This document shows, piece after piece, positions 34,360 to 57,672 of a stretch of DNA of 64,000 nt (position 1 is the first letter of the stretch; each line of letters begins with the position of its first letter). The notes under the pieces are model-generated. The model ran no database searches. It was not told where the DNA came from and saw only the letters and a program-made list of their open reading frames with translations. The position numbers were made by a program, and so were the translations under genes. Source of the DNA: Haemophilus aegyptius (lineage in GTDB: Bacteria > Pseudomonadota > Gammaproteobacteria > Enterobacterales > Pasteurellaceae); NCBI RefSeq assembly GCF_900475885.1, contig NZ_LS483429.1, positions 1,674,001 through 1,738,000 on the forward strand. Reading direction: 5' to 3'.

Positions 34360-36009
34360 TTATTCACCTTTAGCTGCTTTAAATGCTTCAGCCATTGCAT
34401 TTGGAATAACAATATCTTCTTGTTTGTTATTTACACTTGCAACTGCCGCAGCTTCTTCAGCTTGATCTTTTGCTTTCACTGATAAGTGAACAATACGAGA
34501 TTTACGATCTACTCCAGTGTATTTCGCTTCAACGACATCGCCAACAGCTACTTCACTTGTTAAATCAGCAGAACGGATATAACCTTCAACACCACCTGCT
34601 AATTCAACTTTAGCACCTTTAGCATCTGCTTCAACAACAGTTGCAGATACTACCGCACCTTTTTTATTGATTGCGACAAAGTTATTGAATGGATCTTCTT
34701 CAAGTTGTTTAATACCTAAAGAGATACGTTCTTTTACTGCATCAACAGCTAATACAACAGCTGACACTTCGTCACCTTTTTTGTATTGACGAACAACTTC
34801 TTCGCCTGAAATACTCCAAGAAATATCAGATAAATGAACTAAACCATCGATACCACCTTCAAGACCGATGAAGATACCGAAATCAGTGATAGACTTGATT
34901 TTACCCGTTACTTTATCGCCTTTGTTGTGAGTATCAGCAAACTGAGTCCAAGGGTTAGCTTTACATTGTTTTAAGCCTAAAGAAATACGACGACGTTCTT
35001 CATCAATTTCTAATACCATTACTTCTACAGTATCGCCTAAGCTAACCACTTTAGATGGGTGGATATTTTTATTAGTCCAATCCATTTCAGAAACGTGAAC
35101 TAAACCTTCAACGCCATCTAAGATTTCAACGAAACAGCCATAGTCAGTTAAGTTAGTTACTTTACCTGTTAATTTGCTGTTTACTGGATGATTTTCAGCA
35201 ATTGCTGCCCATGGATCTTGACCTAATTGTTTTAAGCCTAAAGATACACGAGTACGATCTTTATCGAATTTTAATACTTTAACAGTAACTTCATCGCCAA
35301 CATTTACGATTTCACTTGGGTGTTTAACACGTTTCCAAGCCATATCTGTGATGTGTAATAAACCATCAACACCACCAAGATCAACGAATGCACCGTACTC
35401 AGTTAAGTTTTTAACGACACCTTTAACTTCTGAACCTTCCACAAGATTTTCTAATACTTGTTCACGTTCTTGGCTGTTTTCAGATTCAATTACTGCACGA
35501 CGAGAAACAACAACGTTGTTACGTTTTTGATCTAATTTGATTACTTTGAATTCTAATTCTTTGCCAAGTAAGTGATCTGCTTCACGCGCTGGACGAGTAT
35601 CAACTAAAGAACCTGGTAAGAATGCACGAACACCGTTTAACTCAACTGTGAAGCCACCTTTCACTTTGCCGTTGATTAAACCGATAACGGTCGCTTTTTC
35701 TTCGTAAGCTTTTTCTAATTCAATCCAAGATTCGTGACGAACCGCTTTCTCACGAGAAAGTTTAGTTTCGCCGAAACCATCTTCAACTGCATCTAATGCA
35801 ACATTTACAGTATCGCCAACTTGGATTTCAAGTTCGCCTTGTGCATTTAAGAATTCAGCAACTGGAATTGCAGACTCAGATTTTAAACCTGCATCAACAA
35901 GCACAAAGCCTTTTTGGATAGCTACTACAGTACCGCTAACGATTGAACCTTGACGAGTTTCAAGGACTTTTAATGATTCTTCAAAAAGTTGAGCAAAAGA
36001 TTCTGACAT
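34360..36009 (-). CDS. rpsA: 30S ribosomal protein S1
   Basis: The mRNA-binding ribosomal protein, 549 residues, with six S1 OB-fold repeats. The four C-terminal repeats are recognisable by [80 protein letters not shown], and a diverged last one. The N-terminal ribosome-anchoring helix is [21 protein letters not shown]. It lies after cmk, the usual gamma-proteobacterial order cmk-rpsA-ihfB. E. coli S1 represses its own translation; no obvious leader structure was identified here. Confidence 0.98.
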
Positions 36010-36105
36010 ATAAATAATCTTCTTAATTTAAGTTAATAACATCCACATTAAAATCCATAAAATGCGGGGTTGAGGATAAATGCTTATTCTTCCTTGAACA
36101 AACAG

Positions 36106-36783
36106 TTAAATCAAAACTGATACCTTTTCTTGAATATAAGCTAACGCCTGATCAATAACTTCATCGATACTCAAGGTTGTGCTATCCAATAATAAAGCAT
36201 CATCTGCTGGTTTTAGCGGCGCAACTTCACGATTTCTATCACGAAAATCACGCTCTTTTATCTTGGCTAAAATCTGTGCAAAGTTACCATTTATTCCTTT
36301 ATTTTGCAACTGTTTATAGCGTCTTTTTGCACGTTCTTCAGCACTTGCATCTAAAAATAATTTTACTTGTGCATTTGGGAATACAACCGTTCCCATATCT
36401 CTGCCATCCGCAATTAATCCATCATTTTTCGCAAAATCTTGCTGAAGTTGTAATAAAGCTGACCGCACTTTTTGAAAGACTGCTACTTTTGACGCAGCAT
36501 CTGCCACTTCTTGCGTGCGAATTAAACGGCTCACATCCATTCCTGCAAGCAAAATGTTTACCTCGCCATTTTGAGGAATAAATTGAATATCTAAATGACG
36601 TGCTAATTCTGCTAAATCTGTTTCATTTGTTAGATCAGTTTTATGTTGCAACGCTGCCAATGCAGTAACGCGATAAATTGCTCCACTATCCAATAACGCA
36701 TAACCTAGCTTTTCTGCCAACGCATAACAAAGCGTCCCTTTCCCAGCACCACTAGGACCATCAACAGTAATAATCATTCCCAT
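36106..36783 (-). CDS. cmk: Cytidylate kinase
   Basis: It phosphorylates CMP and dCMP. From the ATG at 36783 it is 225 residues: [27 protein letters not shown] (P-loop), [16 protein letters not shown], the CMP-binding [12 protein letters not shown], and the lid [16 protein letters not shown]. The longer open frame adds 41 residues with no similarity to the family, and AAAGGA precedes the chosen ATG. As I recall, Rd carries two cmk copies (HI1219 next to rpsA, HI1646 next to pdxS). Here one gene abuts both neighbours, so this may be a recombination joint. Confidence 0.95.
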
Positions 36784-37174
36784 ACAAATTATCCTTTCCT
36801 TCTCAAAATTTTGCGCATTATAGAGACAATTGCCCCTCATTACCATCCTAGAGATTATTACTAGCTTCCATATTTTGTATGGCTTATCTAATAAAGTTAA
36901 TTTCACAAGCTCTAGGAAAGCGTAAACTCCCTTTCAAGCTTTTTCTTAAATTTCAGAAAATCTAACCACATAGAAAAAGGTTTTTAAAAACATTTCAAGG
37001 TTTTTTTAATAACTATTGTGGCACTTAAGGACGAAATTCTTTCAGCTAAAGTAGCTCTTTTTTCTATTATTAAATTGGACAATCCTTCTGACGTTCTACA
37101 CTTCGTTTATACAAAAAACTGAAATTAAGCACGCTAGACATTATGCCTTTTAATATATACGCATTTTTTCAAAC
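36784..37174. other. Non-coding AT-rich region between cmk and pdxST
   Basis: About 390 bases upstream of the divergent cmk and pdxS genes. No open frame or uptake signal is visible. It presumably holds the cmk promoter and any regulator sites for pdxST, such as a MocR-type PdxR operator, but I could not identify one. Confidence 0.5.
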
Positions 37175-37203
37175 TTGTTCTAAAGACTTTTCTACATTAC
37201 AAT
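37175..37203 (+). promoter_or_regulatory. Probable sigma-70 promoter of pdxST
   Basis: TTGTTC (37175-37180), a 17-base spacer and TACAAT (37198-37203) give a good -35/-10 pair. Transcription would begin near 37210, about 15 bases before the octanucleotide repeat, which would then lie in the untranslated leader. Confidence 0.65.
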
Positions 37204-37224
37204 AAAAAACGTAGCTATCAATAC

Positions 37225-37271
37225 AAATAATCAAATAATCAAATAATCAAATAATCAAATAATCAAATAAT
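37225..37271 (+). repeat. Octanucleotide tandem repeat AAATAATC in the pdxS leader
   Basis: Five perfect AAATAATC units plus a sixth missing its last base. The block ends next to the ribosome site GAGGA (37272-37276), 12 bases before the pdxS ATG. Short tandem repeats of this kind change length by slipped-strand pairing in H. influenzae. Confidence 0.95.
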
Positions 37272-37283
37272 GAGGACAAAGAA

Positions 37284-38159
37284 ATGGCTGAAAATCGTTA
37301 TGAACTAAATAAAAACTTAGCACAGATGCTCAAAGGTGGTGTTATCATGGATGTTCAAAACCCTGAACAAGCTCGCATTGCAGAAGCTGCTGGTGCAGCT
37401 GCAGTGATGGCTTTGGAACGAATTCCTGCAGATATTCGTGCTGTTGGAGGTGTCTCTCGAATGAGCGATCCTAAGATGATCAGGGAAATCCAAGGATCAG
37501 TTAGCATTCCAGTTATGGCAAAAGTTAGAATTGGACATTTCGTTGAGGCTCAGATTTTGGAAGCTATTGAAATTGACTATATCGATGAGAGTGAAGTGCT
37601 TTCTCCAGCTGACAACCGTTTCCATGTGGACAAGAAAGAATTCCAAGTACCTTTTGTATGTGGTGCCAAGGATTTGGGCGAGGCCTTACGTCGTATCGCT
37701 GAAGGGGCTTCAATGATTCGTACAAAAGGAGAACCAGGAACAGGAGATATCGTCCAGGCTGTTCGCCATATGCGCATGATGAGTCAAGAAATTCGTCGCA
37801 TTCAAAATTTACGTGAGGACGAGCTCTATGTTGCGGCCAAAGATTTACAAGTTCCTGTAGAATTGGTTCAATACGTCCATAAGCATGGGAAATTGCCAGT
37901 TGTCAACTTCGCAGCTGGAGGAATTGCAACTCCAGCAGATGCGGCCTTGATGATGCAACTTGGCGCAGAGGGTGTCTTTGTTGGTTCCGGTATTTTTAAG
38001 TCAGGAGATCCTGTAAAACGTGCGAGCGCTATTGTCAAAGCTGTAACTAACTATCGAAATCCACAAATCCTAGCACAAATCTCCGAAGATTTAGGTGAAG
38101 CCATGGTTGGTATCAATGAAAATGAAATCCAAATTCTCATGGCTGAGCGAGGAAAATAA
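37284..38159 (+). CDS. pdxS: Pyridoxal 5'-phosphate synthase subunit PdxS
   Basis: The synthase barrel of the DXP-independent vitamin B6 pathway. It joins ribose 5-phosphate, glyceraldehyde 3-phosphate and ammonia from PdxT into PLP. The 291-residue protein has Asp23 (GGVIMDVQ), Lys80 ([10 protein letters not shown]) and Lys148 ([12 protein letters not shown]), all expected catalytic residues. The sequence is strikingly close to the Streptococcus pneumoniae protein as I remember it. Codon choice (AAG, GAG, GGA, TTG) is unlike neighbouring genes, and there is no uptake signal. Together these suggest transfer from a Gram-positive source. It abuts pdxT with no gap. Confidence 0.97.
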
Positions 38160-38738
38160 ATGAAAATCGGAATATTAGCTCTACAAGGTGCCTTTGCGGA
38201 ACATGCACAAATGCTAGAAAAATTAGGAATTGAAAGTGTCGAACTGAGAAATTTAAAAAATTTTCAACAACATTACAGTGATTTATCAGGTTTGATTCTA
38301 CCTGGCGGTGAGTCCACCGCCATAGGAAAACTTTTAAGAGAGCTGTATATGCTGGAACCGATAAAACAAGCTATCTCTTCTGGCTTTCCTGTCTTTGGAA
38401 CTTGTGCTGGTTTGATTCTGTTGGCTAAAGAGATTACTTCTCAGAAAGAGAGTCATTTTGGAACAATGGACATTGTGGTTGAGAGGAATGCCTATGGACG
38501 CCAATTGGGAAGTTTCTATACAGAAGCAGATTGCAAAGGGGTTGGTAAAATTCCTATGACTTTTATCAGAGGACCTATCATCAGTAGTGTTGGTAAAAAA
38601 GTCAATATTCTTGCAACGGTAAATAATAAAATCGTTGCAGCCCAAGAAAAGAATATGCTGGTAACATCATTTCATCCTGAATTAACAAATAACTTGAGTT
38701 TGCATAAGTACTTTATCGATATATGTAAAGTAGCATAA
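38160..38738 (+). CDS. pdxT: Pyridoxal 5'-phosphate synthase glutaminase subunit PdxT
   Basis: The class I glutaminase that feeds ammonia to PdxS. The 192-residue protein has the SNO-family motifs [21 protein letters not shown], the nucleophile Cys82 in [17 protein letters not shown], and His172/Glu174 in SFHPEL. Its ATG directly follows the pdxS stop, so the two are translated from one mRNA. Like PdxS it resembles the streptococcal protein and carries no uptake signal. Confidence 0.96.
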
Positions 38739-38861
38739 ACCATTATCTGCATATCTGCCCTCCCTAGGAAACAAACCATATTGTAGCAATGAGAGCAGAT
38801 AATTTTCATCAAAAAACCGAACAGTTACTAGACTTAAAACCGAATGCAAGGTAGGATAAGG

Positions 38862-39155
38862 ATGAACAAAAACAAAATTTCTTGTTGTATTGTCGAGAGC
38901 AAACGCCACTTCGTAATTGGGCTTTCCCCAAAACGAACCAAAATCAACAATCCTAAAGACATTACACACCATTGAGTATTTACAAGGTTTCAATGCGGAC
39001 TGAATCATCTAGAAAGCACCGACGGCTTGGATCTTACGATTGCCAAAATATTATATCAAGCAGCCTTTTTCGTGCTCATTGCCAATCCACGACAAATCAA
39101 TCACTTTACAATGTCACATTTAGTAACCAACAATTACTGTACAAGTGTAGACTGA
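38862..39155 (+). pseudogene. Relic of an IS110-family transposase (N-terminal part)
   Basis: Translation from ATG 38862 gives MNKNKISCCIVESKRHFVIG..., an in-frame TGA at 38973, then ...HLESTDGLDLTIAKILYQ followed by AAFFVLIANPRQINHF and a stop at 39153. Order and spacing match the start of IS110 transposases (GIDVSK..., LESTGG..., VLIANPRQ...). The first acidic catalytic residue appears lost (CCIVESK for GIDVSK) and the C-terminal two thirds is absent. It is a dead remnant. The identification rests on motif recall. Confidence 0.65.
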
Positions 39156-39243
39156 AATAAGTCAAATAATTTTGCGGTAAACATCAGATAATTTGCTGAC
39201 CTTATTTTGATGAGTTGGCTCTATCTAAGAAGAGGAAATAATA

Positions 39244-39272
39244 AACAAGCGGTCACATTTGACATCTTGTTT
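39244..39272 (-). terminator. Possible dld terminator containing an Actinobacillus-type uptake signal
   Basis: AAACAAG and CTTGTTT can pair around a 15-base loop, 14 bases past the dld stop. ACAAGCGGTC at 39245-39254, continuing ACATTT, is the uptake signal of the Actinobacillus pleuropneumoniae subclade, not the H. influenzae type. Confidence 0.5.
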
Positions 39273-39285
39273 GCATTTTAGAGGT

Positions 39286-40980
39286 TTATTCCGCCCAGTA
39301 TTTTTTCCTCGTCGTTTTACCAATACCTGGATTAAAGCTATTGGTTGGATCCAACTCTTTATAGAATTTTCTCAAGGTTGGTTTAGCCTCGTATAAATGC
39401 CCTACATTGTGTTCGGCTGGGTATTGCGCACCACGCTTGTCAAGTAATTTCAACATTTCGTATTCTAGTTCTTCATAATCATAACCTTTTTTTACAATGT
39501 AATCTTGGTGAAAGACATGGCACATAAAATGTCCGTAGTAAAGTTTAGAGATAATTCTGTTATCAATTTCTGGCGGTAACACTTCAAACCAATCTTGATC
39601 ATTGCGACGTAATGCAACATCTAAAGCAACTATTTCTTCTACTTCTTTTTCGTGAATTGCACGATAACGAATTGCAGCACTTGCAACAGCGAAACGATGA
39701 AGCATTGCTGCTTGGGTTTCGATTGCATTACATTCAAAATAGCCACCTTTTGAGCCATCTGCAATGTAGGATTCCAAATATTCACGGGCTTCTTGAATGC
39801 CTTTTCCACCCATTTTGATAATTAAGTGATGCTCGTATTTGTTGCGATAATCCCATAAGCTTTGTGGAAGATGTTCTGGGATGAATTTAGACACAGTTTG
39901 CATAAATTTATCGCTTAAATGTTGTGGTAAAAAGAAGAATTTTTTGCCGATGCGATCCACGTTTGATTTTAAGGAAAAGAGTTTTGGTAGCCAATGTGTA
40001 CCAAACTTTTTAATGACCCAAAAGGTATCTTTGCCATATTTTGCTGCGATGTCAAATGCATCACGATGGATATATTCACCTGAAATGGGTAGCACTTCGA
40101 AGTTTACTAACATGTGGCGACGAATATCGCTCAAGACAGAAGTTTGATTGGTGCCGATATAGAAAACAGCCGTCTCTTTTTCAAGCGGAAAGGTGTCTAA
40201 ACGAACCGCAAAGACAGCAAGTTTTCCTGCACAGCCTGAGGCTTCATAGTGGCGAGCTGGGTCGGCATTAAAACGAGCAGGGGAGCCTTCATCAACTTGA
40301 CGAACATAGTTGCAGTAGTAATGGTCGTGACCATGTCCGCAATCTTGTCGAATATCTTTAACCTGATAACGTTTTTCTTGTAGATTAGTTAAAATTTCTT
40401 CAGGAGTTTCTCCTAAATCAATGCCTAAATGATTTTTTAGTTCTAATTCACCTTTTTCATTAAGTTGAGCGTAAAGTGCCATTTCTGTATAGGCTGGTCC
40501 ACGTTGAACTAATGCTCCACCTGAATTGTTACAAATCCCACCAATAACTGATGCGCCAATGCAAGATGAGCCAATAACAGAGTGGGGTTCACGACCAAAC
40601 GGTTTAAGTTGATTTTCTAATTCATTGAGTGTAGAGCCTGGTAAGCAAATAACTTGGGAAGCGTTATTGATGAGTTGGATTCCGTCAATTCGCATTGTAT
40701 TGATGACGACAATATCGCGATCATAATCATTGCCATCTGGTGTAGAGCCACCAGTTAAACCTGTATTCGCCGCTTGGTTTATAACAATAACATCATGTTC
40801 AACGCAAACTTTTACAATGTTCCAAAACTCAAGTAGAGTGGCAGGGCGAACAACAGCTAGGGCGTTTCCTGTTCCAAATCGATAACCACTTCGATAAGCT
40901 TCTGTTTTAGTTGGCTCAGTAATAATATAACGAGATCCAACAATATCGGTCAGTCGTGAAATGAGTTGTTGAACAGACAT
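39286..40980 (-). CDS. dld: D-lactate dehydrogenase, FAD-binding, quinone-dependent
   Basis: A peripheral inner-membrane flavoenzyme that oxidises D-lactate to pyruvate and passes electrons to quinone. From the ATG at 40980 it is 564 residues. FAD-binding motifs are NTGLTGGSTPDGNDYDRDIVVINT and GSSCIGASVIGGICNNSGGALVQRGPAY, and the C terminus is YPAEHNVGHLY...DPTNSFNPGIGKT. The longer frame begins with TTG and adds seven residues; AGAGGA precedes the chosen ATG. It is flanked by relics on both sides. It corresponds to HI1649 of Rd as I recall. Confidence 0.95.
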   Translation of the reverse strand: MSVQQLISRLTDIVGSRYIITEPTKTEAYRSGYRFGTGNALAVVRPATLLEFWNIVKVCVEHDVIVINQAANTGLTGGSTPDGNDYDRDIVVINTMRIDGIQLINNASQVICLPGSTLNELENQLKPFGREPHSVIGSSCIGASVIGGICNNSGGALVQRGPAYTEMALYAQLNEKGELELKNHLGIDLGETPEEILTNLQEKRYQVKDIRQDCGHGHDHYYCNYVRQVDEGSPARFNADPARHYEASGCAGKLAVFAVRLDTFPLEKETAVFYIGTNQTSVLSDIRRHMLVNFEVLPISGEYIHRDAFDIAAKYGKDTFWVIKKFGTHWLPKLFSLKSNVDRIGKKFFFLPQHLSDKFMQTVSKFIPEHLPQSLWDYRNKYEHHLIIKMGGKGIQEAREYLESYIADGSKGGYFECNAIETQAAMLHRFAVASAAIRYRAIHEKEVEEIVALDVALRRNDQDWFEVLPPEIDNRIISKLYYGHFMCHVFHQDYIVKKGYDYEELEYEMLKLLDKRGAQYPAEHNVGHLYEAKPTLRKFYKELDPTNSFNPGIGKTTRKKYWAE

Positions 40981-56847: not shown

Positions 56848-57033
56848 TGTTTTGCTCCTTTGTCAAGAAAATAATTGAGGGCGTTGGTTGTAACAGAAAA
56901 TAATTTCAAAAATGTGAGCTACTTCACATTTTGGAAATTAAATAAAAAACGTGGAAAAAATTTACCGCACTTTTAGGCTAATTGATCATTTATTTTGCAC
57001 TTGGTTGATCAATAACCTCCAAGAATTTAGGAT

Positions 57034-57672
57034 TTAAGATTTAGGATTTAAAAATGGATTGCTCCGCTTTTCTTGCCCAATGGTTGTGTAAGATCCGTGT
57101 CCAGCGATAATAATAAGATCGTCATTCAATGGTAATAGTTTTGTTCGAATTGAAGAAATCAATGTTTCATAATCCCCGCGAGGGAAATCGGTGCGACCAA
57201 TTCCGCCTTGAAATAATACATCGCCTGTAAATGCCACTTTTTTCTCATGTTCAATGAAACCAATATGCCCAGGTGTATGCCCTGGTAAATGTAAAATCTC
57301 GAAATTAAAGCCATCTAATTTTAAAATTTCACCTTCTTGATTAAACCAACGATCAGGCAAAAAAGCGTCAATATTTGGCAAGCCAAAACGTTGGGCTTGC
57401 TCGGGTAAACTCTCAAATAAAAATTTATCTTTTTCATTAGAACCCCAAATTTCAACGCCAAAATGTTGTTTTAATTGCATTGCAGCACCAACGTGATCTA
57501 AATGACCATGGGTAATCAAAATCACTTTGAGATTTAAATCCAGTTCTTCAATGCGTTGAATTAGGCGTTCGGCTTCGCCACCTGGGTCAATAATTGCGGC
57601 ATTTTTTTCATCATCCCAAATCAAAGAACAATTTTGTTGGAATGCGGTAACAGGGATAATTTCGATATTCAT
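57034..57672 (-). CDS. Glyoxalase II-like metallo-beta-lactamase-fold hydrolase (YcbL type)
   Basis: A 212-residue thioesterase-like hydrolase. Metal motifs are ILITHGHLDHVGAAMQL (HxHxDH), LPGHTPGHIGF, FTGDVLFQGGIGRTD and IIAGHGSYTT. It is shorter than GloB and matches E. coli YcbL, a type II glyoxalase acting on lactoylglutathione in related species. It is the first of a run of minus-strand genes (this gene, TatD-like, mepK, ldtD) that mirrors the E. coli ycbB-ycbK-ycbL cluster. Confidence 0.92.
   Translation of the reverse strand: MNIEIIPVTAFQQNCSLIWDDEKNAAIIDPGGEAERLIQRIEELDLNLKVILITHGHLDHVGAAMQLKQHFGVEIWGSNEKDKFLFESLPEQAQRFGLPNIDAFLPDRWFNQEGEILKLDGFNFEILHLPGHTPGHIGFIEHEKKVAFTGDVLFQGGIGRTDFPRGDYETLISSIRTKLLPLNDDLIIIAGHGSYTTIGQEKRSNPFLNPKS

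Follow-up and report, generated by a model that had tools for sequence, protein, structure and literature searches.

The leader of the pdxST operon of Haemophilus aegyptius carries six octanucleotide units in tandem, an array that has probably grown by slippage in a leader of apparently streptococcal derivation and is probably tolerated there with at most a graded effect on expression, and not as an on/off switch. It was studied in a window of 64,000 nucleotides (contig NZ_LS483429.1, positions 1,674,001 to 1,738,000), whose own numbering is used throughout; the genome that contains it is referred to as G000. The repeat itself has been known since 2009, when Power et al. described an octanucleotide ATTATTTG between cmkB (HI1646) and pdxS (HI1647), and its function is left open in the parts of that paper available to us (PMC2651432). 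ATTATTTG is the reverse complement of the unit in our array. The streptococcal affinity of the operon and its leader, the history of the octamer slot and the alleles presented below are new as far as our literature searches reach. These searches found no report of pdxS or pdxT transfer into Haemophilus, and HI1647 was not found among the best 20 of 2,056 matching papers. The available text of PMC3309571 and PMC6156194 does not contain the string "pdx", and that of PMC8812261 lists pdxS among the genes used for species validation, with no mention there of the repeat.

The octanucleotide array in the pdxS leader

The features of the operon and its leader are as follows.

37175 to 37203, forward strand: putative core promoter, TTGTTC (37175-37180), 17 bp, TACAAT (37198-37203); found by eye and by alignment with streptococcal leaders
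37224 to 37271, forward strand: octanucleotide array, six perfect CAAATAAT units; found by reading, TRF, genome pattern search and resampling
37272 to 37276, forward strand: GAGGA, putative Shine-Dalgarno sequence (SD) of pdxS, directly abutting the array; found in the sequence, the motif being common to seven aligned streptococcal leaders
37284 to 38159, forward strand: pdxS, pyridoxal 5'-phosphate synthase lyase subunit (NCBIfam TIGR00343, 514 bits, over cut-off)
38160 to 38738, forward strand: pdxT, pyridoxal 5'-phosphate synthase glutaminase subunit (NCBIfam TIGR03800, 258 bits, over cut-off)

Direct reading and TRF agree on six perfect units at 37224-37271 (period 8, 6.0 copies, 100% matches, score 96), and this is the top-scoring of the 10 TRF rows in the window, the other nine scoring 40-67. 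The sole other row at 100% matches is a 14-bp tandem repeat, ATTTAGGATTTAAG, present in 1.9 copies at 57025-57051. The array is 48 bp long and its 3' end abuts the GAGGA ribosome site, which leaves 12 bp between array and the pdxS ATG at 37284. The original prediction had described five AAATAATC units plus a partial AAATAAT running up to GAGGA, which is correct in that register. The interval that it gave, 37175-37283, does contain the array but spans the whole promoter-leader stretch, whereas the array occupies only 48 bp of it. The position between promoter and ribosome site is also supported, with a promoter that is itself putative, as is the placement of the repeat outside the coding frame. 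The NCBIfam matches confirm the gene names pdxS and pdxT that had been proposed from the sequence. By family, both products are enzymes of vitamin B6 synthesis and not host-interface products, and they are located in the cytoplasm.

The array is far beyond chance. Its longest run of period-8 matches is 40, whereas 2000 first-order Markov resamples of the 498-bp intergenic region gave at most 11 and 60 resamples of the whole window at most 12. A three-unit pattern searched in the organism's own genome gave four overlapping matches, all within this single array. With six uninterrupted units, it counts as a simple sequence repeat (SSR) in H. influenzae, for which the threshold for 8-bp repeats was set at a minimum of three uninterrupted units (Table 2 of PMC2651432). 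The TTGTTC-17-TACAAT stretch is the putative promoter of pdxS; a promoter consensus scan found 0 promoters here (shuffles, mean 2.6), and no transcription start map of H. influenzae was among the 10 of 18 titles listed in the literature search.

Streptococcal affinity of pdxST and its surroundings

Among the best 80 relatives of the genome scan, PdxS is 95-97% identical to its counterparts in 23 mitis-group streptococci, and the next relative after these, at 89%, comes from a Leptotrichiaceae MAG. A search of the organism's own family gave a PdxS match in 45 of 140 Pasteurellaceae genomes, four of them Haemophilus; the other 41 carry a PdxS that is 61-79% identical, in one genome as two pieces (61 and 74%). 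The protein tree comprised 26 of the best 80 PdxS relatives, 29 Haemophilus or other Pasteurellaceae loci and the window, and it placed 26 other Pasteurellaceae rows across a branch from Haemophilus, among which the ungrouped rows may also lie. The operon thus shows the marks of an acquisition: its closest relatives are streptococcal, its own family is distant and pdxST is patchy in the genus, with pdxS present in four of 10 Haemophilus genomes. Elsewhere in the family, G041 (L096) and G093 (L097) stand out with a PdxS at 78-79%, compared with 61-66% in the rest of the family's main matches, and these two may represent further separate acquisitions.

The similarity to streptococci extends beyond the coding sequences, and the flanking DNA has a different distribution.

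36695 to 36831, no strand assigned: 137-bp stretch (5' end of cmk) whose second copy, inverted, lies at G000:C1:1270797-1270933; it marks the break in a strain-specific gene order, found by genome comparison
36832 to 37162, no strand assigned: intergenic stretch of 331 bp, 31% GC, present in all four pdxST-bearing Haemophilus genomes and lying outside both the Haemophilus and the streptococcal homology
about 37163 to 38730, forward strand: similarity to DNA of the Streptococcus mitis group, covering promoter core, leader, pdxS and pdxT; found by blastn, MAFFT alignment and trees

When 23 Streptococcus loci were compared by blastn, similarity ran from 37256-37269 to 38726-38730 in all 23, and a separate promoter piece at about 37163-37226 was similar in eight; the similarity stops near the end of pdxT. 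With MAFFT, the promoter core and the leader aligned with all seven of the streptococci given. Just before the ribosome site, the streptococcal leaders hold an octamer slot, filled by CAACTATT in 8 of the 23, CAAATGAT in 7, TAAATGAT in 3 and CAAATAAT in 2; two further forms were each seen in a single leader, and one leader departed from the pattern. No exact tandem octamer was found in the last 60 bases of any of the 23 leaders. Because the slot holds a single octamer and none in tandem, the Haemophilus array appears to be one leader segment multiplied, and we infer that this happened by slippage.

The direction of transfer is less clear from the trees than from the distribution. In the DNA tree, Haemophilus lies with S. 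peroris/infantis on one side and the S. mitis/oralis group on the other (support 82/100 and 87/99, with the bootstrap not settled). A streptococcal clade appears in only 11% of 200 bootstrap trees, which is likewise not fully settled, and the AU test does not reject such a clade (p 0.346), so that a nesting of Haemophilus pdxST inside the streptococci is suggested but not proven. Since the AU test leaves the streptococcal clade unrejected, it is the distribution that points from Streptococcus to Haemophilus, pdxST being general in the mitis-group matches and patchy in Haemophilus. Third codon positions are only 59-69% identical; the transfer is therefore old or the true donor unsampled.

The operon seems to work here without the regulator PdxR, which activates pdxST in S. 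pneumoniae (PMC5320631). A TGTACCC..ACA(A/G) element lies upstream of the promoter in 20 of the 23 streptococcal regions, and the other three differ from it by one base when the pattern is loosened; taking the element for the PdxR site is a guess. Its best match in the Haemophilus intergenic region has four mismatches, whereas 310 of 500 shuffles reach three or fewer. The presence of a PdxR was judged by a GntR-domain search, MocR regulators being GntR domains fused to an aminotransferase. In the window's genome, this search gave one match over the cut-off, in an open frame that at 245 aa is too small to encode a MocR protein, and two weak matches below the cut-off in frames of 274 and 252 aa; by this domain search, the genome thus yielded no MocR regulator of the kind that a PdxR-regulated operon would call for. 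It is the combination of a missing MocR-sized GntR protein and a missing streptococcal element that suggests PdxR-independent expression.

On the upstream side, the six Haemophilus genomes that lack pdxST are homologous up to 36829-36831, and the stretch that follows (36832-37162) occurs only alongside pdxST among the 10 Haemophilus genomes; it had no plasmid match and no streptococcal match in the loci compared. The gene order around it varies. G000 and G006 have rpsA-cmk-pdxST-dld, G005 has fbp-pdxST-dld with cmk elsewhere, beside lctP, and G007 has cmk-pdxST followed by an apparent lctP instead of dld (L142 5105-6800), which would be a different insertion context and perhaps the older one. 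Of these genes, fbp was identified by NCBIfam; rpsA, lctP and dld are tentative assignments, made for lctP in G007 only through a matching antisense frame. The two 137-bp copies are 93% identical and inverted relative to each other, with a separation of about 440 kb in G000 and 421 kb in G006; a second copy was not found in G007. On both flanks, G000/G006 and G005 differ in gene order in the way that an inversion of ~420-440 kb would produce. This arrangement would fit an insertion next to cmk that was followed by a move and by an inversion between the two copies, in an order of events that we infer. About 450 bp separate the breakpoint from pdxS, and promoter and array are untouched by it. 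The lctP-like frame of G005 (L138, 429-2026) is split into two overlapping ORFs, a possible frameshift. The 9-mer AAGTGCGGT, which we take to be the Haemophilus DNA-uptake sequence, occurs once in 36001-40000, at 36462 within cmk, and not in pdxST or its leader.

Copy-number alleles and their possible effect

Repeat number is not the same everywhere, so that the invariance that would have told against the original prediction is not seen. It differs across strains, with six units in the leader of G000 and two each in G005, G006 and G007, the first of the two in G006 being mutated at two bases. Power et al. reported one, four or six copies in a four-genome study, and in a further twelve genomes found seven with four copies (three strains) or six (four strains); their Table 3 lists one octanucleotide SSR of at least three units in each of three complete genomes and none in the fourth, Rd KW20, according to the available parts of the paper (PMC2651432). 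In the pdxST DNA tree (29 rows), G007 branches outermost, then G005, then G000 with G006 (98/96 and 98/87), and because of this branching order two units would be the simplest ancestral state and six a derived one in the G000 lineage.

Natural leaders were folded from an assumed 5' end near 37210. The leader measures 74 nt with six units and 42-43 with two, and all four Haemophilus alleles fold weakly (-5.6 to -7.5 kcal/mol). The SD is predicted to be unpaired at a fraction of 0.63-0.65 in these alleles and of 0.56-0.75 in four streptococcal leaders. In each Haemophilus allele, weak pairing is predicted between the last unit and early coding sequence, around the ribosome site, and in the six-unit allele the other units are predicted to be open. 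Masking of the SD by folding was considered and rejected, as copy number was without effect on predicted exposure. Because the units contain no G and most are predicted to be unpaired, extra copies would lengthen the A/U-rich leader without hiding the ribosome site. Lengthening of this stretch would be the main consequence of copy number, and its likeliest effect is none at all, or a graded one on translation or mRNA stability.

Phase variation of B6 synthesis, as the original prediction proposed, would require octamer slippage to switch or strongly change pdxST expression, so that subpopulations with different B6 synthesis arise. The differences in copy number between strains and the location of the array between putative promoter and ribosome site would both suit it, and since modulation of expression is ascribed to the repeats upstream of hmwA in this species (PMC2651432), copy number may have a regulatory effect. 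However, known allele states are few, the four Haemophilus alleles here and one, four or six copies in print comparing with 14 distinct lengths of licA across 16 strains (Table 5 of PMC2651432), and the 2009 survey called the significance of the repeat uncertain, its range and length being unlike those of a classical phase-variable locus. Three of the four alleles also have two or fewer intact units, which are probably too short for fast slippage. As known allele states are few, the target is metabolic and predicted ribosome-site exposure is the same across copy numbers, a switch is quite unlikely, and the array is more probably a length variant of mild or no effect.

It could also be that the length alleles set constant pdxST levels and are kept by selection, perhaps in replacement of the donor's PdxR control, with standby binding, binding of S1 or attack of the leader by RNase as conceivable routes. 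Such tuning would be consistent with an A/U-rich, weakly folded leader, with a genome whose only GntR-domain match over the cut-off is the 245-aa frame, and with an upstream element that is found in 23 of 23 streptococcal regions (exact or with one base changed) and is here no better than in shuffles. Yet six units in several strains (PMC2651432) may come from descent, drift or recombination, and the regulatory role of the streptococcal element is guesswork, which leaves this reading improbable. Its stronger form, in which the octamer expanded into a heritable length dial for B6 synthesis, a repeat rheostat replacing the PdxR that did not come along in the transfer, is doubtful indeed. Finally, the array might be a regulator binding site or a secondary structure with each unit as one module, as the identical units at 8-bp spacing could suggest. 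One or two units are, however, the state in other strains and in streptococci, no stable structure is predicted and a spacing of 8 bp would not keep the units on one face of the helix, and there is very little chance that this explanation holds.

The likeliest reading is a slippage-grown and tolerated array. In this scheme, pdxST and its leader would have been transferred from a mitis-group-like Streptococcus, the high similarity being evident and the direction presumed. The ancestral leader would have had one octamer slot adjoining the ribosome site, replication slippage would have produced two units in the Haemophilus lineage and six in some lineages, including this one, and the extra copies would be tolerated, with at most a graded shift in translation or mRNA stability. 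H. influenzae and mitis-group streptococci are both naturally competent inhabitants of the human throat. What this adds is a history, in which the repeat goes back to a slot with a single octamer in a leader shared with streptococci, and hence a simple repeat for which the initial sequence is legible. The operon appears to have moved together with its core promoter, apparently without its regulator, and any effect of the length alleles is directly testable with natural leaders.

Comparison with known systems

The nearest counterpart is pdxST of mitis-group streptococci, with a PdxS 95-97% identical and a promoter core, leader and ribosome site that can be aligned with those of Haemophilus; it differs in its single octamer slot and in the TGTACCC..ACA-like element upstream of the promoter, which is absent in Haemophilus. 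In other Pasteurellaceae, for example Actinobacillus pleuropneumoniae (PMC5407770), pdxST encodes the same enzyme and pathway, but PdxS is only 61-79% identical (41 genomes) and stands apart from Haemophilus in the protein tree. The SSR of Power et al. (PMC2651432) is the same repeat, as reverse complement, in the same position, with 12 bp between it and the B6 gene; a streptococcal origin is not mentioned in the available parts of that paper, and the two-unit and interrupted alleles are added here. The SSRs of hmw1A and hmw2A in H. influenzae, with units of 7, 8 and 9 bp, are likewise non-tetranucleotide repeats upstream of a gene and outside its coding frame, but they belong to adhesin genes and have 12-38 copies in the available passages, whereas pdxST is a metabolic operon with 1-6 copies (PMC2651432).
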